From: a virus
Strand: one strand, 5' to 3'
IMG/VR virus record: IMGVR_UViG_3300025941_000012
Span: 1 to 24,968 of that record
DNA length: 24,968 nt
Shown here: positions 11,023 to 18,360 of the stretch, piece after piece
Layout: every line of letters begins with the position of its first letter
How positions within the stretch are numbered: the stretch's first letter is position 1
Made by a program: the position numbers and the translations under genes
The notes under the pieces: generated by a model
What the model was told of the DNA's origin: nothing
The model's input: only the letters and a program-made list of their open reading frames with translations
Database searches by the model: none

Positions 11023-11966
11023 ACGACTGGTGGATGGAACCGTACCGGGGCGGCCCGATGGCCGTCCCCCCCACCATGTTCCCCCGGCCGCTGTACCCGC
11101 CGGACGCGAACCGGCAAGGCAAGAAACCCAGTCCGGACGGACCCGACGCGGAGGCGTACAAGCGGGGTGTCTGGCGCGCGGGGCGTTGGCCCGGCCCCGC
11201 CTCCGGGTTCGACCGTCAGTTCTCCAACGCATTCAGCCACGGCCAGCCGGGCGGGAACGTCGGCTCGAGCGGGATCGCGGGGTTTCAGCGGCAGATGGGG
11301 ATCGACCCGACCGGCTGGGTAGGCCGCTCAACGTTCAACACATTGGCGTCCGCGCTGGTGCCGGAGGGGCCGCACAAGGGGGAGCCGGTGTTGGACGCGA
11401 ACGCGTGCAACCTGATCGCGGAGGCGTTCGCGATCTACGGCGGCGAGCCCGACCCGCCCGACCCGCCCGTGAAGGAGGCCACCACGCGGGAGCGGGCGTT
11501 CGCCGGCGCGCTCAAGTGGCTGGGCACCACCGAGAACCCGTCCGGGACGAACAAGACCCCGTTCGGGAAGTGGTACGGGGTTGACGGTCAGCCGTGGTGC
11601 GCCATCTTTTGCAGCTACTGCTACGAGGTCGAGGCGGGCGGCAACCCCAGCTTCGACCCCGCCGCCGCCCACTACGCCTACTGCCCCTATATCGTCAGCG
11701 ATGCCCGCAACGGCCGGAACGGTCTCAGCATCCCGAGCTCACCGATCCGCGGCGATCTCGTCGTCTACGCGTGGGGCTCGAGCGGCGCGAGCACGGAGGA
11801 GTTCGACCACGTCGGGTTCTTCGAAGCATGGGTGAGCGGCTCGACGTTCACCGCGATCGAAGGCAACACGTCGGTTGACAACGACAGTAACGGCGGCCAG
11901 GTGATGCGGCGGCAGCGCACCACCACCGGGCAGGGCACCGTGTTCGTCCGGGTCGCGGAGCCGTGA
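11019..11966 (+). CDS. Endolysin: peptidoglycan-binding segment plus CHAP amidase/peptidase
   Basis: A 315-residue lysis enzyme starting at ATG 11019 in an ATGA overlap. Residues about 65-140 resemble a peptidoglycan-binding domain (SSGIAGFQRQMGIDPTGWVG). Residues about 155-315 form a CHAP domain with catalytic cysteine near 194 in QPWCAIFCSY, histidine near 264 in EFDHVGFFE, and an acidic residue in TAIEGNTS. These enzymes cleave cell-wall peptide or amide bonds at the end of infection. No signal peptide is visible, so release would need a holin; the next gene is a candidate. Confidence 0.9.
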   Translation: MNDWWMEPYRGGPMAVPPTMFPRPLYPPDANRQGKKPSPDGPDAEAYKRGVWRAGRWPGPASGFDRQFSNAFSHGQPGGNVGSSGIAGFQRQMGIDPTGWVGRSTFNTLASALVPEGPHKGEPVLDANACNLIAEAFAIYGGEPDPPDPPVKEATTRERAFAGALKWLGTTENPSGTNKTPFGKWYGVDGQPWCAIFCSYCYEVEAGGNPSFDPAAAHYAYCPYIVSDARNGRNGLSIPSSPIRGDLVVYAWGSSGASTEEFDHVGFFEAWVSGSTFTAIEGNTSVDNDSNGGQVMRRQRTTTGQGTVFVRVAEP

Positions 11967-12998: not shown

Positions 12999-13223
12999 AT
13001 GGTGGCGCAGGCGGCTGATCCCGCTGCAACATTCGGCGTCGAGCTGCGAACGGCACGGCTCGAACGGGGAATGACGCGGAAGGAGCTTGCCGCCCGATCC
13101 GGGGTGTCGTATGTCAACATCCGCCGGATCGAAACGACCACGCAGCTGCCGCAGGAAGGCACCCTGATCGGGCTCGCCAAGGCGCTCGATCTCCCCATCG
13201 CGACGCTGCTCCAGTGGCGTTGA
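12999..13223 (+). CDS. Cro/CI-type HTH repressor
   Basis: A 74-residue protein starting at ATG 12999 after a GGGGGGA purine run. Almost the whole protein is an XRE-type helix-turn-helix: FGVELRTARLERGMTRKELA, AARSGVSYVNIRRIE, then LIGLAKALDLPIATLLQW. It has no cleavage or oligomerisation domain and is small even for phage Cro proteins. It is the first gene of an operon with the integrase and is divergent from the minus-strand HTH gene. It probably binds the operator at 12911-12928 and controls lysogeny; whether it acts as CI or Cro is open. Confidence 0.8.
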   Translation: MVAQAADPAATFGVELRTARLERGMTRKELAARSGVSYVNIRRIETTTQLPQEGTLIGLAKALDLPIATLLQWR

Positions 13224-13429
13224 CCTGCCACTTCTGCGGCGAGCCGCTCGACCCCCTCGCCCGCGACAGCTACCGGCGCGTCACCGGCTGGGAACGCAAA
13301 GCCCTCGCCGAGAGCCGGAAGGGCGGCAGCGACATCGTGCTCCGCGAGCCGGTCGACGAGTATGCCCACTCCGGGTGCGTGATCCTGGTGCAGCAGGGGC
13401 TGTCGCCGAGACAGGCGTCGCTGCTGTGA
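13214..13429 (+). CDS. Small zinc-finger-like protein
   Basis: A 71-residue protein starting at GTG 13214, overlapping the repressor by 10 bases. It carries a CHFC pair near the N terminus and a second possible zinc pair in YAHSGC near residues 50-54. The middle has RVTGWERKALAESRKGGSD. Its stop overlaps the integrase start (GTGA). The CxxC...HxxC pattern suggests one structural zinc. Between repressor and integrase it could be an accessory regulator or a recombination directionality factor, but no family is recognised with confidence. Confidence 0.6.
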   Translation: MALTCHFCGEPLDPLARDSYRRVTGWERKALAESRKGGSDIVLREPVDEYAHSGCVILVQQGLSPRQASLL

Positions 13430-14568
13430 GCGGTACCATCCTGGCCGACAACAAGAAGCCCGGCGCCGCCGAAACGGCCCGGGCACGGCACAGGAGGGTC
13501 AAGCTCCCATGCAGCACCGATCTTACGGCTCCCCCCCTCGAGGCGGAGCTCCTCACGCTCGCGCAAGCGGTCGCGATCCTGGCGGACCCGATGCGTGACG
13601 AGGCATACAAGCGCACCGCGCTCGGCCCCGACATCGTCGACCACCTGAACCGCGCCCGCCTGGGCCGGAACAAACCAACGACGCTCGACGCGAAAGAACG
13701 GATCCTCGCCAGGCTCGCCGTCTCGTGTCCCGACGTCGGGATCGCCGACCTCGCCTACGAGCACCTCGAGCGGTACCTGCTCACCGTCCCGGAGAAGTCA
13801 TGGCGGATCCACCGGTCGCACATCAACACGTTCGTGAAGTGGGCGATCATGTTCGACCGTCGACCCGCGAAGAACCCGGTCGAGTTGCTCCCCGAGCTCC
13901 GCCCGAACGAGCAGCGCGTCCTGAACGTGTTCGACGACCACGAGCGGCGAGAGATCATCGACGCCAGCCGCTACATGGACGACCCCGCCCGCGACCGCGT
14001 CCGAGCTCACCTGATGCTCGACGCCGGCATCCGCAAGGGCGAGGCGAGAGGGCTCCTGCATGGCGGCGTCGACCCGAACCGCCGCGAGGTCACCGTCCTC
14101 GGCAAGGGCGGCAAGGAGCGCAGCATCCCGATCGAGGAACCCTCGTTCTGGCTCGCATGGGAGACCGCTCTGCTGACGCCGCTCCCCCGGCTCGGTCGTC
14201 TCCCAGACGCGGCCGACTACGTCTGGTTCCCGATGCGGGTCGCGGGTGAGTACCGCGGCCGGGCGAGGCAAGTGACCCGCGCCTACCCGGACAGGCCGAT
14301 GGGGCAGCGCGGCTTCCACGACTGGTGGGAACGGCTGCTCTCCCATTCCGGCGTCGAGTACCGCAAGCCGCACATGACCCGGCACACGTTCGCGACCGAG
14401 GCGCTGGACGCGTCCGAGGGCGACATCTACGGCGTCCAGCAGTTGCTCGGCCACGTGAACATCGCGACAACCCAGCTGTACGTGCACTCGTCGATGCGGC
14501 GGAAGGAATCGGTCGTGCGGGCGCTCACTCGGGCCCGCGCCAAGGACGACAACGCTCCGCCCAAATGA
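13426..14568 (+). CDS. int: Tyrosine integrase
   Basis: A 380-residue tyrosine recombinase. GTG 13426 is chosen because it overlaps the previous stop in the GTGA style of this genome. The N-terminal half holds a SAM-like core-binding domain (about 85-160, WRIHRSHINTFVKWAI). The catalytic domain has Arg203 (DAGIRKGEARGL), Lys227 (LGKGGKERSIPI), His316 and Arg319 (HMTRHTFATEAL), His343 (LGHVNIATTQLYVH) and the nucleophile Tyr352. All expected residues are present, so it should be active. It would integrate the phage at a host site; a tRNA-like core lies 50 bases after its stop. Confidence 0.93.
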   Translation: MSGTILADNKKPGAAETARARHRRVKLPCSTDLTAPPLEAELLTLAQAVAILADPMRDEAYKRTALGPDIVDHLNRARLGRNKPTTLDAKERILARLAVSCPDVGIADLAYEHLERYLLTVPEKSWRIHRSHINTFVKWAIMFDRRPAKNPVELLPELRPNEQRVLNVFDDHERREIIDASRYMDDPARDRVRAHLMLDAGIRKGEARGLLHGGVDPNRREVTVLGKGGKERSIPIEEPSFWLAWETALLTPLPRLGRLPDAADYVWFPMRVAGEYRGRARQVTRAYPDRPMGQRGFHDWWERLLSHSGVEYRKPHMTRHTFATEALDASEGDIYGVQQLLGHVNIATTQLYVHSSMRRKESVVRALTRARAKDDNAPPK

Positions 14569-14584
14569 TCCGATAACCAGTGCC

Positions 14585-14617
14585 GAAAAACCCCCGCAAA
14601 ATGCAAGATTTTAGGCG
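14585..14617 (+). repeat. Copy A of A5C5GCAAAA...TTTTAGGCG element beside attP
   Basis: GAAAAACCCCCGCAAAATGC followed by AAGATTTTAGGCG, directly before the attP core. A close relative occurs at 20809-20841 (GAAAACCCCTGCAAAACGC, then TTTTTTAGGCG). A partial inverted copy, GCGGGGTTTTG, occurs at 14681-14691 on the other side of the core. Flanking copies could be integrase arm-type sites; this is inference. Confidence 0.45.
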
Positions 14618-14650
14618 CCTAGCGGATTCGAACCGCTGTTACAGGCATAA
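14611..14650 (-). other. attP: Probable attP core resembling a tRNA 3' end
   Basis: Read on the minus strand, this contains AGCGG-TTCGAAT-CCGCT, a perfect 5-bp T-stem with the canonical T-loop, followed by AGGCGCC and T, which fits the 3' acceptor strand and discriminator. No matching 5' acceptor (GGCGCCT) is found farther along, so it is only the 3' part of a tRNA. A tRNA 3' end directly after a tyrosine integrase gene is the usual attP layout. The plus-strand form CCTAGCGGATTCGAACC also starts the repeat family described from 14849 on. Confidence 0.7.
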
Positions 14651-14680
14651 GGCCGCAAAACCATATTTCCCTGCCAAACG

Positions 14681-14691
14681 CGGGGTTTTGA
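14681..14691 (-). repeat. Partial inverted copy of the attP-flanking element
   Basis: GCGGGGTTTTG here is, on the minus strand, CAAAACCCCGC, matching AAAACCCCCGC at 14587-14597. It lies on the far side of the attP core, as expected for a P' arm site. Confidence 0.35.
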
Positions 14692-14692
14692 C

Positions 14693-14887
14693 GTGAAAGA
14701 TCCCGTGGAGGCATCCGCGGGCCAGGGGCACCGGGCAGCGATACGGGACAGATCACCGGGCAGGTACGACAAGCCAGGGAGCCTAGCCCGGGGCCCGCGC
14801 ATCACGGGTGATGCCACCGACCTCCCTGGGGTCCGGTGCTCCGAAAGCCTTGCGGATTCGAACCAGCGTTCCAGGCGGACAGCGTGA
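14693..14887 (+). CDS. Uncertain small ORF ending in the repeat motif
   Basis: A possible 64-residue frame from GTG 14693 (GTG 14705 is an alternative) to TGA 14885-14887. Most of it is low-complexity and overlaps the structured leader. Near its end it reads SLADSNQRSRRTA, the same reading of the repeat used at N termini downstream. Its stop overlaps GTG 14884 in the array's RTGA style. It may be a leader reading that couples translation into the next gene, or a remnant whose original frame was lost. Coding status is doubtful. Confidence 0.3.
   Translation: MKDPVEASAGQGHRAAIRDRSPGRYDKPGSLARGPRITGDATDLPGVRCSESLADSNQRSRRTA
14774..14829. promoter_or_regulatory. Structured leader before early operon
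   Basis: Outer arms CCAGGGAG (14774-14781) and CTCCCTGG (14822-14829) enclose a perfect hairpin, GCATCAC-GG-GTGATGC (14799-14814). The inner hairpin shares the 10-base core TCACGGGTGA with the iterons of the probable origin (18763-18860). It could be a binding site for the initiator, giving feedback on the early operon, or an RNA structure such as an attenuator. Apart from these structures and the low-confidence frame from 14693, the stretch 14569-14883 holds no clear gene. Confidence 0.45.
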
Positions 14888-15084
14888 AGAGACGCGGCGG
14901 ATGGGAGTGCGGCGAGTGCGGCGGGTGGTGGCCGAGCGCCGTCCCGACCTGCATCGACTGCCTGATTCGTGACCGCGACGGCGCGGTGAACGCGCTGGCT
15001 CAGATGTGCCGCGAGCGTGACCAGGCCCGGCGCGAGATCGCAGAGTTGAAGAAGCGGCTCGGCTATCCGGGGTTCGCACGATGA
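14884..15084 (+). CDS. Small zinc-ribbon / coiled-coil protein
   Basis: A 66-residue protein starting at GTG 14884. The frame extends to GTG 14836, which would add MLRKPCGFEPAFQADS, the repeat read in a different frame from all other copies. Residues 7-26 carry ECGECGG...CIDC, a C-x2-C / C-x2-C zinc ribbon. A coiled coil with RERDQARREIAELKKRLG follows. Its stop overlaps the next ATG (ATGA at 15081). The zinc-plus-coil layout suggests a small DNA- or protein-binding factor; no family is recognised. Confidence 0.6.
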   Translation: MKRRGGWECGECGGWWPSAVPTCIDCLIRDRDGAVNALAQMCRERDQARREIAELKKRLGYPGFAR

Positions 15085-15485
15085 ACGGTCTAGCGGATTC
15101 GAATCCCAGTTCTAGGTGTGGTGCTGGCCGGGGCAGCGATACCACAGGGGCGGGTGCCCGGAATACCCGCCCGACTTCTTTAGCGGACGGTAATCCCAGG
15201 AAACGGGCGACTGCCTGCGGGCACTGCGGCGCGGATAGGGGCATCGCATCGACGGAGTACATCGCGAACCGTGTCCCTGGCTGGACGTGTAAGGCGTGCC
15301 GCTGGTGGAACTGGCTAACGGAGCCGCTGGCTGGGCGGGATCCTCTAGCGGACGGTAATCCCAGTTATGGGCCGATGGGCGAAGGGCGCTGGGAGAAGGA
15401 CGGGCAGCGATGGATCGCCGCGAATGGGGCGCTTACCTCGACAGTGCCGGTGCGGGTGACGATCGTCGTCACGGTGAAGCCGTGA
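15081..15485 (+). CDS. Composite zinc-ribbon protein carrying three in-frame repeat motifs
   Basis: A 134-residue protein starting at ATG 15081. It contains the tag three times in one frame: LADSNPSS at residues 4-11, LADGNPRK at about 34-41 and LADGNPSY at about 89-96. The middle segment holds a zinc ribbon (CGHCGADRG ... WTCKACRWW), the last a basic/aromatic segment (GEGRWEKDGQRWIAANG) ending in a strand VPVRVTIVVTVKP. It looks like three small repeat-headed units that lost the stop/start pairs between them. Function unknown; the stop overlaps the next GTG. Confidence 0.65.
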   Translation: MNGLADSNPSSRCGAGRGSDTTGAGARNTRPTSLADGNPRKRATACGHCGADRGIASTEYIANRVPGWTCKACRWWNWLTEPLAGRDPLADGNPSYGPMGEGRWEKDGQRWIAANGALTSTVPVRVTIVVTVKP

Positions 15486-15676
15486 CCGTTCCGGACTCGA
15501 ATCCCAGTTCGCCTCCGTTCACGGTCTGCCATCGGTGCGAGCGCGTCTACGAGCTGGGGCACCCGTGGCTCACAGTCGCGAAATACGGCGCTCGCCCGGA
15601 GAAGTGGGAGTTCTGCACGATCGAGTGCCTCGCCACGCATTTCGAGGTTCCCGATTACTCATGGGTGCCGAAGTGA
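15482..15676 (+). CDS. Small zinc-binding protein with repeat-encoded N terminus
   Basis: A 64-residue protein starting at GTG 15482 in a GTGA overlap. It begins MTVPDSNPSSPPFTVCHRC (type B repeat), then has CHRCERVYELGHPW and a second cysteine pair in FCTIECLATHF, so one zinc site of C-x2-C / C-x3-C type is likely. The rest reads KYGARPEKWEF and ends FEVPDYSWVPK. It resembles short phage zinc-finger proteins that bind nucleic acid, without a match I can name. Confidence 0.65.
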   Translation: MTVPDSNPSSPPFTVCHRCERVYELGHPWLTVAKYGARPEKWEFCTIECLATHFEVPDYSWVPK

Positions 15677-15918
15677 CCGGCCTAGCGGACGGTAATCCCA
15701 GTAAACCGCCGATAGCCGACATCCGTGAGACGGGTGCGGCTTGGATCACCGAGGCCGAGCTTGCCGCACTGTTTGCAGATCGGGACACGCTCCGCGATCG
15801 ACTCGTCCGCATAGAGGCGATCGCCACGCGAGGCGTTGGCCCGGACACGACGCCCGAAGTGGCGCTCGCGACGATCGCTCACTTCGTCTCGCTGACCTTG
15901 GCACGGGTGCCCGCGTGA
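15673..15918 (+). CDS. Small helical protein with repeat-encoded N terminus
   Basis: An 81-residue protein starting at GTG 15673 (GTGA overlap). It begins MTGLADGNPSKPPIADI, an exact type A repeat, then helices with WITEAELAALFADRDTLRDRLVRIEAIA and TPEVALATIAHFVSLTLA. The ERDxLRxxLxRI pattern is close to the second half of the protein at 16651 (DERDQLREALQRIADG), and both follow SK-x-x-IAD directly after the repeat. The two therefore share more than the tag. No function is recognised. Confidence 0.6.
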   Translation: MTGLADGNPSKPPIADIRETGAAWITEAELAALFADRDTLRDRLVRIEAIATRGVGPDTTPEVALATIAHFVSLTLARVPA

Positions 15919-16466
15919 CCCTTCCGGAGTCGAATCCCAGTTATAGGACGATCGTCGCCGATCCGCCCTGGGAGTACGACGAGGGGACGGGAGCGAGCTA
16001 CTCCACCCGCGGCCGTCGTGATTGCGACCTCCCGTATCCCACGATGACCGTCGATGAGATAGCCGCTCTCCCCGTACCATCGCTAGCCGCCAAAACCTCG
16101 TCCCTTTTCCTCTGGACTACCAACCGATATTTGCGGGACGCTTACGAGATCGTCGCCGAGTGGCGATTTCCGCATATCGCGACGCTGGTCTGGTGTAAAC
16201 AGCACGGTCTCGGCAGCGGCGGTGTCTTCTACTCCAATGTTGAGTTCATCCTCTATTGCCGACGGCCGCAGACCTTGGCACCAGCGCGGATTCATTCGCG
16301 CTGGTTTACGTGGCCGCGAAGCGACCACAGCGCAAAACCGGAGGCGTTCCTCGACCTCGTCGAGCAGGTCTCGCCGGGACCGTACCTAGAGCTGTTCGCT
16401 CGCCGCAACCGGCTCGGGTGGGACACGTGGGGCGACGAGGCGCTCGAGCTCGTGGAGATGGCATGA
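15915..16466 (+). CDS. MT-A70 family adenine methyltransferase
   Basis: A 183-residue protein starting at GTG 15915 (GTGA overlap). The tag MTLPESNPSYR runs directly into TIVADPPWEY, with the catalytic DPPW at about 16-19. Further MT-A70 features are MTVDEIAALPVPSLA, LFLWTTNRYL, ATLVWCKQHGLGSGG, FILYCRRP, SDHSAKPEAFLDLVEQVSPGPYLELFARR and GWDTWGDE. It would transfer a methyl group from SAM to adenine N6 in DNA. In phages this can protect against restriction or mark replication. Its natural start would be close to the DPPW, so the repeat-coded tag looks like an addition. Confidence 0.88.
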   Translation: MTLPESNPSYRTIVADPPWEYDEGTGASYSTRGRRDCDLPYPTMTVDEIAALPVPSLAAKTSSLFLWTTNRYLRDAYEIVAEWRFPHIATLVWCKQHGLGSGGVFYSNVEFILYCRRPQTLAPARIHSRWFTWPRSDHSAKPEAFLDLVEQVSPGPYLELFARRNRLGWDTWGDEALELVEMA

Positions 16467-16654
16467 GCGGCCTAGCGGACGGTGATCCCAGTTATAGGCG
16501 GCCGAAGGTCTCGGAGCGGACGACCCGCGACTATGCCTGCGGCGAATGTGGCGCCGAACCCGGCGAACGGTGCAGGCCACCGAAGCCGAGCATCTATCAC
16601 CGCGATCGCGAGCGTCGATTCATCCGGTCCGTGAATAGACAGGCCGCCGAATGA
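16463..16654 (+). CDS. Actinophage-type zinc-finger protein with repeat-encoded N terminus
   Basis: A 63-residue protein starting at ATG 16463 (ATGA overlap). It begins MSGLADGDPSYRRPK (type A repeat with one change), then YACGECGAEPGERCRPPKP, followed by IYHRDRERRFIR. The C-x2-CGAxPGxxC...H pattern is a well-known small zinc finger in actinobacterial phages and hosts, presumed to bind nucleic acid. In this gene the family domain begins only after the tag. Confidence 0.75.
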   Translation: MSGLADGDPSYRRPKVSERTTRDYACGECGAEPGERCRPPKPSIYHRDRERRFIRSVNRQAAE

Positions 16655-16944
16655 CCCTTCCGGATTCGAATCCCAGTTACCGGCCGAAGGCTTCGGAGGC
16701 GGCGAGTCCGCAGGATTGCGATCCGGTGGGAACAGGGCCGAGTTCACGCCCGGGCGTTCCATCCGCCTCCGAACTATCACTAGCGGACGGTAATCCCAGT
16801 AAACGGCTGATAGCCGACGAGCGGGATCAGCTACGCGAAGCACTACAGCGAATCGCGGATGGTGCCGAATCAAATCCGCCACACGAAGTCGCCGCAATAG
16901 CTCGCGAGGCCTTGCGCGTCACCGACCAAGAACCGAAGCCGTGA
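16651..16944 (+). CDS. Composite small protein with two in-frame repeat motifs
   Basis: A 97-residue protein starting at ATG 16651 (ATGA overlap). The type B tag LPDSNPSYRPK opens it, a serine/proline-rich stretch follows, and an exact type A tag SLADGNPSKRLIAD occurs at about residues 43-56. The second half is helical (ERDQLREALQRIADG and HEVAAIAREALRV) and resembles the protein at 15673. It appears to be two units fused by loss of the internal stop/start. Function unknown. Confidence 0.6.
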   Translation: MTLPDSNPSYRPKASEAASPQDCDPVGTGPSSRPGVPSASELSLADGNPSKRLIADERDQLREALQRIADGAESNPPHEVAAIAREALRVTDQEPKP

Positions 16945-17345
16945 GCCCTGCGGAACCTAACCCCAGTTATAGGCGCATGGGCGGGGCTCGGCGTCCAGAG
17001 AACGCTGTGGGAAGCGGCGCAGTGACTGGCCGCGCCGCCGCGATCGCGATGCTGGTCGCGTTCCTGGCCGCGATAGCGGTCGCCGTGTCCAAGGCGGCGG
17101 CGGCGGGGTACTGGGACCGGTTGGCGTGGTGCGAAACCCGCGGCCAGTGGCACCAACGCGGCACCTACTACGTCGGCGGGCTGGGGATCTGGTACGGGAA
17201 CTGGTGGAAATGGGCGCCGGCCGTGGGTGTCCACGGGCCCGCCTACCTCGCCTCGAGGGAGGAGCAGATCCGGGTCGCCAGGTACGGCCGCCGCGTCGAC
17301 GGGGCGTACTGGGGCTGCATGCGGATCGTCGGGTTGCCGTGGTGA
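16941..17345 (+). CDS. Rpf-like transglycosylase-domain protein with repeat-encoded N terminus
   Basis: A 134-residue protein starting at GTG 16941 (GTGA overlap). After the tag (MSPAEPNPSYRR) and a linker comes a hydrophobic segment at about 31-50 and then YWDRLAWCETRGQW, YYVGGLGIWYGNWW and LASREEQIRVARYG ... WGCMR. This is the resuscitation-promoting-factor fold, with the catalytic Glu in CE near residue 65 and a likely Cys64-Cys126 disulfide. Such domains cleave peptidoglycan outside the membrane in Actinomycetota. GTG 17022 would start a normal signal peptide, which makes the first 27 residues look added. Confidence 0.8.
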   Translation: MSPAEPNPSYRRMGGARRPENAVGSGAVTGRAAAIAMLVAFLAAIAVAVSKAAAAGYWDRLAWCETRGQWHQRGTYYVGGLGIWYGNWWKWAPAVGVHGPAYLASREEQIRVARYGRRVDGAYWGCMRIVGLPW

Positions 17346-17512
17346 GCGAGGATGGGGTGGACGAGATCGACGAGCCAGTGATCTTCGACCTGGTCGAGCT
17401 CGCGTTGGAGTGGGCCGCGTGCCGGCGCGCGTTGACTGTGCTGGCTGATCTCACCGATGAGGAACGCGCCGAGTTCGCCATGTTGGCCGCGACGACGCTG
17501 CTGACGCCGTGA
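17342..17512 (+). CDS. Small acidic helical protein
   Basis: A 56-residue protein starting at GTG 17342 and ending in an overlap with GTG 17509. It reads MSEDGVDEIDEPVIFDLVEL, then ALEWAACRRALTVLADLTDEERAEF. It is helical and strongly acidic, has no membrane helix, and lacks the repeat tag. It is the first gene after the tag array. Function unknown. Confidence 0.6.
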   Translation: MSEDGVDEIDEPVIFDLVELALEWAACRRALTVLADLTDEERAEFAMLAATTLLTP

Positions 17513-18360
17513 TCAGGATCGGTGACCGTGTCCGCACCGCACTCGACCTGCCCGGCCTGGTCGTCGGGGTCACGGAGGAGCGCGGCTACAGCCGCATCCT
17601 CGTGAAGTTGGACGCGAAGCCCAACAGCCCGCCGATCTCGTACCCGCCCAGTCTCGTGAGGAAGGAGCAGCCCGTGTCCGTTCAAGAAGACCAGAAGCCG
17701 TCTGCACCACCCACCCCGGTACAGCCCTCGAGGGATCTCGTGGAGCGCCCGGAACCCACCGAGACCGCCGGCAGCCTCGCCGAGCTCCGCACGCTTGGCT
17801 GGTGGCTCGCACTGGCGGAGACCGGGGCGGACACGAAGGAGGCGCTCGGCGCCGCCGCCGCGCTGCGGTTCTACTTCGTCCGCGAGCTCGGCCTTCCTCC
17901 CCTCGCCGCCGCCGAGGTGAGCGTGATCAAAGGCAAGCTGTTCGTGCAGAGCAAGCTGCTCCGCGCGCTCGCGGCCCGTGCCGGCTACCGGGTCGTAAGA
18001 ACCAGGGACTCGAACGACGATTCGTGTACGGCGGTCGTGATCGACGAGCGCGGCGTCGAGGTCGGACGCTCGACGTTCACGATGGCGGACGCGAAACGCG
18101 CCGGGCTGGTGCGCGACCGCAGCGCGTGGGTGACCCACCCTGGTCGGATGCTGTGGGCCCGCGCGGCGAAGTTCGCGATCGACGACTACGCCCCAGAAGT
18201 CAGCCTCGGCCTGATGACCGACGACGAGCGCGCCGAGATCCTCGACCAGCCGTTCATCGAGGTCGACGACCCGTCGCCGGAGATCACGCTGGACGGGCCC
18301 CGGACGGATCAGGTCGAGCAGTACGACCTCGAGCGAGAGGCGGTCGTCGACGAGCCATGA
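17509..18360 (+). CDS. RecT-like recombination protein (with optional N-terminal extension)
   Basis: A 283-residue frame from GTG 17509, with a strong internal start at GTG 17674 preceded by GGAAGGAG; from there it is 228 residues. The first 55 residues (IRIGDRVRTALDLPGLVVGV) look like a separate small beta domain. The main part has ALGAAAALRFYFVRELGLPP, VSVIKGKLFVQSKLLRALA, FTMADAKRAGL and LWARAAKFAIDDYAPEV, which resemble RecT-type single-strand annealing proteins of actinophages. It would aid phage DNA recombination or replication. The stop overlaps the next ATG. No exonuclease partner is seen. Confidence 0.6.
   Translation: MIRIGDRVRTALDLPGLVVGVTEERGYSRILVKLDAKPNSPPISYPPSLVRKEQPVSVQEDQKPSAPPTPVQPSRDLVERPEPTETAGSLAELRTLGWWLALAETGADTKEALGAAAALRFYFVRELGLPPLAAAEVSVIKGKLFVQSKLLRALAARAGYRVVRTRDSNDDSCTAVVIDERGVEVGRSTFTMADAKRAGLVRDRSAWVTHPGRMLWARAAKFAIDDYAPEVSLGLMTDDERAEILDQPFIEVDDPSPEITLDGPRTDQVEQYDLEREAVVDEP
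17674..18360 (+). CDS. RecT-like protein, alternative internal start
   Basis: Same frame as the entry from 17509. GTG 17674 has a GGAAGGAG ribosome site 7 bases before it, the strongest in this part of the operon, and begins MSVQEDQKPSAPPTPVQP. Either this is the true start and the region 17509-17673 codes a short separate peptide by read-through, or two nested products are made. Confidence 0.5.
   Translation: MSVQEDQKPSAPPTPVQPSRDLVERPEPTETAGSLAELRTLGWWLALAETGADTKEALGAAAALRFYFVRELGLPPLAAAEVSVIKGKLFVQSKLLRALAARAGYRVVRTRDSNDDSCTAVVIDERGVEVGRSTFTMADAKRAGLVRDRSAWVTHPGRMLWARAAKFAIDDYAPEVSLGLMTDDERAEILDQPFIEVDDPSPEITLDGPRTDQVEQYDLEREAVVDEP

Follow-up and report, generated by a model that had tools for sequence, protein, structure and literature searches.

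Stoperators, the short asymmetric repeats that L5 and other cluster A mycobacteriophages carry in one orientation, act in transcription regulation. They are named as 13-bp sequences in the description of the Start-Associated Sequences of cluster K mycobacteriophages, which are themselves 13-bp motifs of the GGGATAGGAGCCC type that occupy the ribosome-binding site, a few bp before the start codon (PMC3203893). Conserved boundary (linker) sequences, in turn, have been proposed for phage mosaicism (cited in PMC3029335) and are presented, in the part of that source used here, as short shared sequences at gene boundaries thought to seed the homologous exchange of modules. Integron attI/attC arrays associate a tyrosine recombinase with an att site heading an array of small gene units. 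Here we describe a repeated element from the early region of an uncultured virus (IMG/VR record IMGVR_UViG_3300025941_000012; 'the window' denotes the whole 24,968-nt stretch analysed), of which twelve related copies, all on the + strand, span positions 14619 to 16974. This element is an in-frame, DNA-conserved junction between the small early-gene cassettes of a phage family, and it is homologous to the phage attachment site (attP) core, a derivative of a tRNA 3′ end, that heads the array.

Like the Start-Associated Sequences and the repeated motifs of Microbacterium phages (PMC7302621), both of unknown function, the element occurs in many copies, in one orientation, near gene starts and only among non-structural genes. 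Those motifs, however, precede the start, at the ribosome-binding site, or fall in gaps between genes, whereas the present element is longer, resembles attP and lies mostly within coding frames; in the window its core begins 6–9 bp past the start, or ends in a leader open reading frame (ORF), and has no AGGAG core. Stoperators share the form of short asymmetric repeats in one orientation, and differ by their known role in transcription regulation. With boundary sequences the element shares short homology placed where non-homologous genes meet; unlike them, as far as they are set out in that part of the source, it forms a repeated array, is translated in frame, is related to att sites and is common to phages with unrelated cassettes. 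As in integrons, a tyrosine recombinase gene and an att site head an array of small gene units, but the site does not fold, the element does not track the integrase, and unit boundaries do not fall at one crossover point. No description of such an element was found in the literature searched, from which most subscription papers were absent.

An earlier note on this DNA, made from its letters, had proposed twelve related 21-base elements placed at gene starts in an early operon. All twelve were picked up (12.6–28.4 bits, E <= 0.007) by a profile trained solely on the copies of other phages, attP-type copies excluded, and 100 Markov-shuffled windows yielded no match at E<0.01, with a top score of 9.7 bits. 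The conserved block is longer than was thought, about 28 bp with the consensus CT..CGGA-NNN-GAAY-NNNN-GT-NNNN-GGC, and the placing at gene starts holds for seven copies. The array has eight genes (nine had been counted) between 14884 and 17345 on the + strand, RTGA-overlapping ORFs in phase with the elements, and seven of them do open with an element right after the overlap: copy 3 (15090..15117, the core starting here and below at the first coordinate) is the N-terminal tag of gene 15081-15485, and copies 6 (15488..15515), 7 (15682..15709), 8 (15921..15948), 9 (16472..16499), 10 (16657..16684) and 12 (16947..16974) open gene 15482-15676, gene 15673-15918, the MT-A70 methyltransferase gene 15915-16466, the zinc-finger gene 16463-16654, gene 16651-16944 and the transglycosylase-like gene 16941-17345, respectively. 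Copy 2 (14849..14876, right arm CCAGC) lies just upstream of the eighth gene, at 14884, where it makes up the final 12 codons of an ORF; the ORF's TGA and the gene's GTG overlap. Copies 4 (15180..15207), 5 (15345..15372) and 11 (16780..16807) are internal to ORFs, in the frame shared by the other copies, so that gene 15081-15485 is an in-frame fusion of three cassettes and gene 16651-16944 one of two. Copy 1 (14619..14646) is the putative attP core. The alternation of two element types, A and B, noted earlier is limited to the stretch from 15345 to 16780. It is no general rule, since over all arrays neighbouring copies resemble one another slightly more than they would if randomly ordered.

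Related arrays were gathered by pattern and integrase searches of IMG/VR, and all relatives (here designated by L or G numbers) are metagenomic fragments. The profile search proposed in the earlier note, run with a refined profile over 40 sequences (703 kb), gave 111 elements in 29 contigs, plus 13 copies of the attP-like form, an extent that the note had not foreseen, as it had not the attP nature of copy 1 or the copies inside fused ORFs. Within each contig all matches lie on one strand and are grouped in an array, a few contigs having a single copy; in ten whole records a simple pattern search turned up the motif on no strand but that of the array, and the reversed control never matched. 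Comparison of the window DNA with 50,697 phage records gave no DNA relatives and no isolate phage match, the concatenated tag peptide used as query matched nothing, and a single scan of genome contigs returned distant integrases only. In one contig, G402 (28272 bp), integrase and attP occupy one end and the array the other, which fits a circularly permuted genome; no terminal repeat was found in it.

The element is kept in frame. Of the 111 copies, 110 are open in the element frame, as against 51 in each of the other frames. An in-frame start lies just upstream of 77 copies (as RTGA for 66); of the 34 others, 31 extend an open frame coming from upstream; 42 copies finish as short leaders, with a stop overlapping the following start in 36, and several upstream genes terminate within the element (e.g., ...ALADPYWCDRP*). 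The start-codon offset varies by lineage, the element either following the start or preceding the next one by about 30 nt. Since the same stretch may stand alone as a leader peptide, tag an N terminus, link two parts of a protein or form a C-terminal tail, a peptide function is unlikely, whereas a requirement for the element to stay in phase is not.

Conservation acts instead at the level of DNA, as the earlier note had suspected. The in-frame wobble positions hold a mean of 1.00 bit, against 0.59 expected from amino acids and backbone codon usage; rare codons are used 269 times against 96 expected; and in the second codon, NCG, the first base is free and the wobble base invariant. Over the 111 copies the two G at positions 5-6 never vary and several further positions are near-invariant, the spacer being variable. 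Eight long backbone genes confirm that these codons run against the preference of the genome (AAT 3 to AAC 106, TAT 2 to TAC 66, AGT 4 to AGC 50, and CTA in 21 of 298 Leu codons).

Copy 1 reads AGCGG-ATTCGAA-CCGCT, the reverse complement of a tRNA 3′ end, that is, a T-arm in reverse behind an AGGCGCC acceptor stem, with perfect inverted arms about 50 nt past the stop of a tyrosine integrase gene (13375..14568, + strand; PF00589 E 2.9e-24, phrog_1 E 9.8e-31). In this copy a tRNA 3′-end sequence with inverted arms adjoins the integrase gene, and its position, arms and tRNA likeness mark it as a putative attP core, with place and flank as in the attP-type sites of related phages; in L014 (the L010 contig) the corresponding place is taken by a different tRNA-type core, with a similar downstream flank. 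Scored by the profile lacking attP copies it reaches 28.0 bits, the second best of the twelve. Samples of genomes were searched for the host's attB tRNA: the 396 drawn from the Pseudarthrobacter genome's phylum contained no match, and the 121 drawn from that of a Chloroflexi metagenome-assembled genome gave just 3-mismatch tRNA-like matches.

The array copies retain the left arm and the outer right sequence of this core, and have lost the complementary right arm. Their left half contains the upstream gene's stop, the overlapping start (RTGA) and the CTAGCGGA arm, and the right half leads into the next gene body. The two halves are statistically independent (mutual information z 0.6): left halves come in two main forms, start-codon spacing included, without positional order, and right halves are ordered along the array, in a largely fixed succession: attP arm, CCAGC or CCAGG, then CGAGC and CTGGT (one lineage) or TCCCA with mostly CCCCA-like arms after it (the other). 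Across all arrays, this order holds through unrelated gene contexts. Many cassette genes, moreover, terminate in ...KP* (AAGCCGTGA), lengthening the left side of the element (in the window at 15476-15484 and 16933-16943, and in several arrays), and L011 has, at about 11287-11305, just past the attP region, an orphan right half (AACCAGCGTTCAAGC) with no left half.

Cassette genes turn over. A relative in another contig of the set was found for 19 of 84, the flanking replication and integrase genes being, by contrast, widely shared. The families that could be named include MT-A70 and Dam methylases, a Mom-like protein, DUF1643, transglycosylases, zinc ribbons and an excisionase-like protein, and PADLOC recognised only the methyltransferases. 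The genes with and without the element at exact borders that the earlier note had suggested looking for do exist, in five families, with junctions at the element edge. The window methyltransferase begins MTLPESNPS-YRTIVADPPW; its counterparts in L016 and L023 read VRYRTIVADPPW and VKYRTIVADPPW, and that of Gordonia phage Mcklovin starts three codons ahead of the aligned part. The L006 transglycosylase lacks the element, and its homology to the window gene begins at the element's right edge (+27). The remaining families are the L015 VVIDLKV gene (without it in L006 and L019), an L047/L048 gene (without it in L019) and the L047 5146 gene (without it in L006).

Because the cassettes are short, a coding-strand test was undecided in 51 of 76. 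Three code better on the strand opposite to the element, with a clear codon score (L011 11397-11818, the first cassette of contig G402, and L023 12217-12639), and for a second L011 cassette the score only hints at this. Both L011 cassettes nevertheless have an open frame on the element strand, which ends exactly at the start region of the next element.

The ends of segments shared between contigs fall inside elements in 16 of 35 cases, against 6.4 expected (p 0.0014), in a test based on just 16 shared segments. L047 and L048 have everything rightward from +4 in common and nothing comparable leftward, and in L006 and L024 the end of a gene and the left arm match as far as +8, so that some breaks fall within the element. 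One and the same gene may also stand behind different right arms, as does a zinc-ribbon-like gene (CCAGC in the window, CGAGC in L024) and a gene common to contigs G402 and G420 (CTGGC and CTGGT, respectively). Together with the independence of the halves and the order of the right ones, this indicates that gene bodies move between more stable elements, in support of the cassette exchange that the earlier note had listed among its possible meanings.

We therefore read the element as an attP-derived cassette junction at which small genes are swapped in frame, most likely by homologous recombination, and put the chances of this at about even. The integrases of array-bearing phages fall in five clades, that of the window being matched at the general PF00589 family level only, and the elements stay the same throughout, including the clade of L015 and L021, which has a transfer-messenger RNA (tmRNA)-type attP core (GCGGG-AATCGAA-CCCGC), a finding that weighs against the phage integrase as the enzyme responsible. 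An annealing protein gene (RecT-like, Erf-like or of the phrog_3290 family) follows all ten arrays tested, the window and nine others, and in the window it encodes a RecT-like single-strand annealing protein, the proposed exchange agent (17509..18360, + strand; phrog_561 E 1.1e-16). Phage annealing proteins swap diverged DNA in temperate phages, and the relaxed homologous recombination of Rad52-like phage recombinases is likewise an exchange of genes through diverged homology, for which the part of PMC3945230 drawn on here describes no dedicated repeated linker (PMC3945230). Homologous exchange is favoured on these grounds. Crossovers within the short shared element sequences would replace one gene body with another, made most likely by the phage's own annealing protein during replication or co-infection. 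As nearly all copies are in one frame and most have the stop/start overlap, a swapped-in gene would be translated at once, its translation coupled to that of its neighbour or fused with it. Selection for exchange, or homogenisation through exchange, would preserve the DNA sequence, rare codons included. The ancestral copy may have been the attP core, from which array copies later lost the complementary right arm, a loss that would also prevent the integrase from excising cassettes.

Several points weigh against this reading. Besides the few segments behind the junction test, no recombination event was seen, and random exchange followed by selection would likewise be expected to leave junctions at the edges of genes. 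Annealing proteins are common in temperate phages, so that their presence here is weak evidence. Simple homology leaves the positional order of right-arm types unexplained. In other integrase clades copy 1 keeps its arms and varies its loop. In L015 (11240-11346) and L021 (11205-11310) the tmRNA (ssrA) 3′-end-type core is followed, about 60 bp downstream, by another palindromic site, CTAGCGG-N7-CCGCTG, in which the arms are kept and the loop has diverged.

The main rival, possible if on the whole doubtful, is that the element controls expression: bound by a phage protein or an RNA, it would govern transcription or translation of each early gene in the manner of Start-Associated Sequences or stoperators. 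It would suit copies that are asymmetric, DNA-conserved, on a single strand, in the early region only and mostly at gene starts, the order of element types along the array, and the palindromic arms kept by the integrase-side copy around a diverging 7-nt loop, even beside a tmRNA-type core. It sits badly with copies inside fused ORFs, as C-terminal tails or beside cassettes coding better on the opposite strand, and with a position relative to the start codon that depends on lineage. Sigma-70 promoters were sought in 14500-17500 and none found. RNA structure was rejected as the role of the element: the window has no Rfam or tRNA matches, and over the 111 copies folding does not exceed chance (mean z -0.10 for RNA). 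Translation coupling, also suggested earlier, accounts for the RTGA overlaps and the frame and leaves the conserved rare codons unexplained.

Rather unlikely, in our view, is a dedicated and evolving phage system of gene capture, comparable to the integron, with a constant att half-site, ordered tRNA T-stem-like half-sites and a recombinase swapping in-frame cassettes with translation kept in phase. Integron-like site-specific recombination, in which the phage integrase reads the left arm and exchanges strands in a 7-bp overlap to insert or excise cassettes, we regard as unlikely too. The array does start at an attP adjoining the integrase gene, all copies have the same left arm, a 7-nt spacer and one orientation, and left and right halves are decoupled at the spacer. 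However, five integrase clades share the element, so that in silico it shows no specificity for the adjacent integrase; the complementary right arm is absent from array copies, overlaps often mismatch the phage's own attP, some 5′ junctions lie at +27, beyond the overlap, and there is no attC-type single-strand folding (mean DNA z 0.07, 111 copies).

That the copies are neutral debris, old attP duplications hitchhiking with genes and without present function, would agree with the homology to attP and the variable spacer, but it is very improbable given the rare codons retained across highly diverged phages and the invariant and near-invariant positions. A functional peptide tag on early proteins, for which the single open frame speaks, is hardly credible and was rejected on position and codon evidence, the peptide being N-terminal, C-terminal, internal or a free-standing leader, wobble bases being conserved beyond amino-acid prediction, codons not varying freely, and homologues elsewhere lacking the tag. 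The last two results favour the earlier note, which had named their opposites as what would refute it.

Among the neighbouring genes, a Cro/C1-type helix-turn-helix protein encoded upstream of the integrase (window 12999-13223) is a candidate immunity regulator.

In conclusion, an uncultured family of temperate phages links its small early genes by one in-frame, att-like repeat, apparently permitting genes to be swapped with translation kept, and this linker seems to represent a kind of phage gene shuffling not described before. It is an open question how phages put together series of small, unrelated early genes while leaving operons intact; conserved boundary sequences are rarely found, and here most boundaries carry one, in fixed frame and of probable attachment-site origin, which makes modular exchange testable. 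The arrays also point to a wealth of small unknown proteins, mostly orphans, with methyltransferases, a Mom-like protein and zinc ribbons among them, and the element offers a natural design for gene swapping within an operon.

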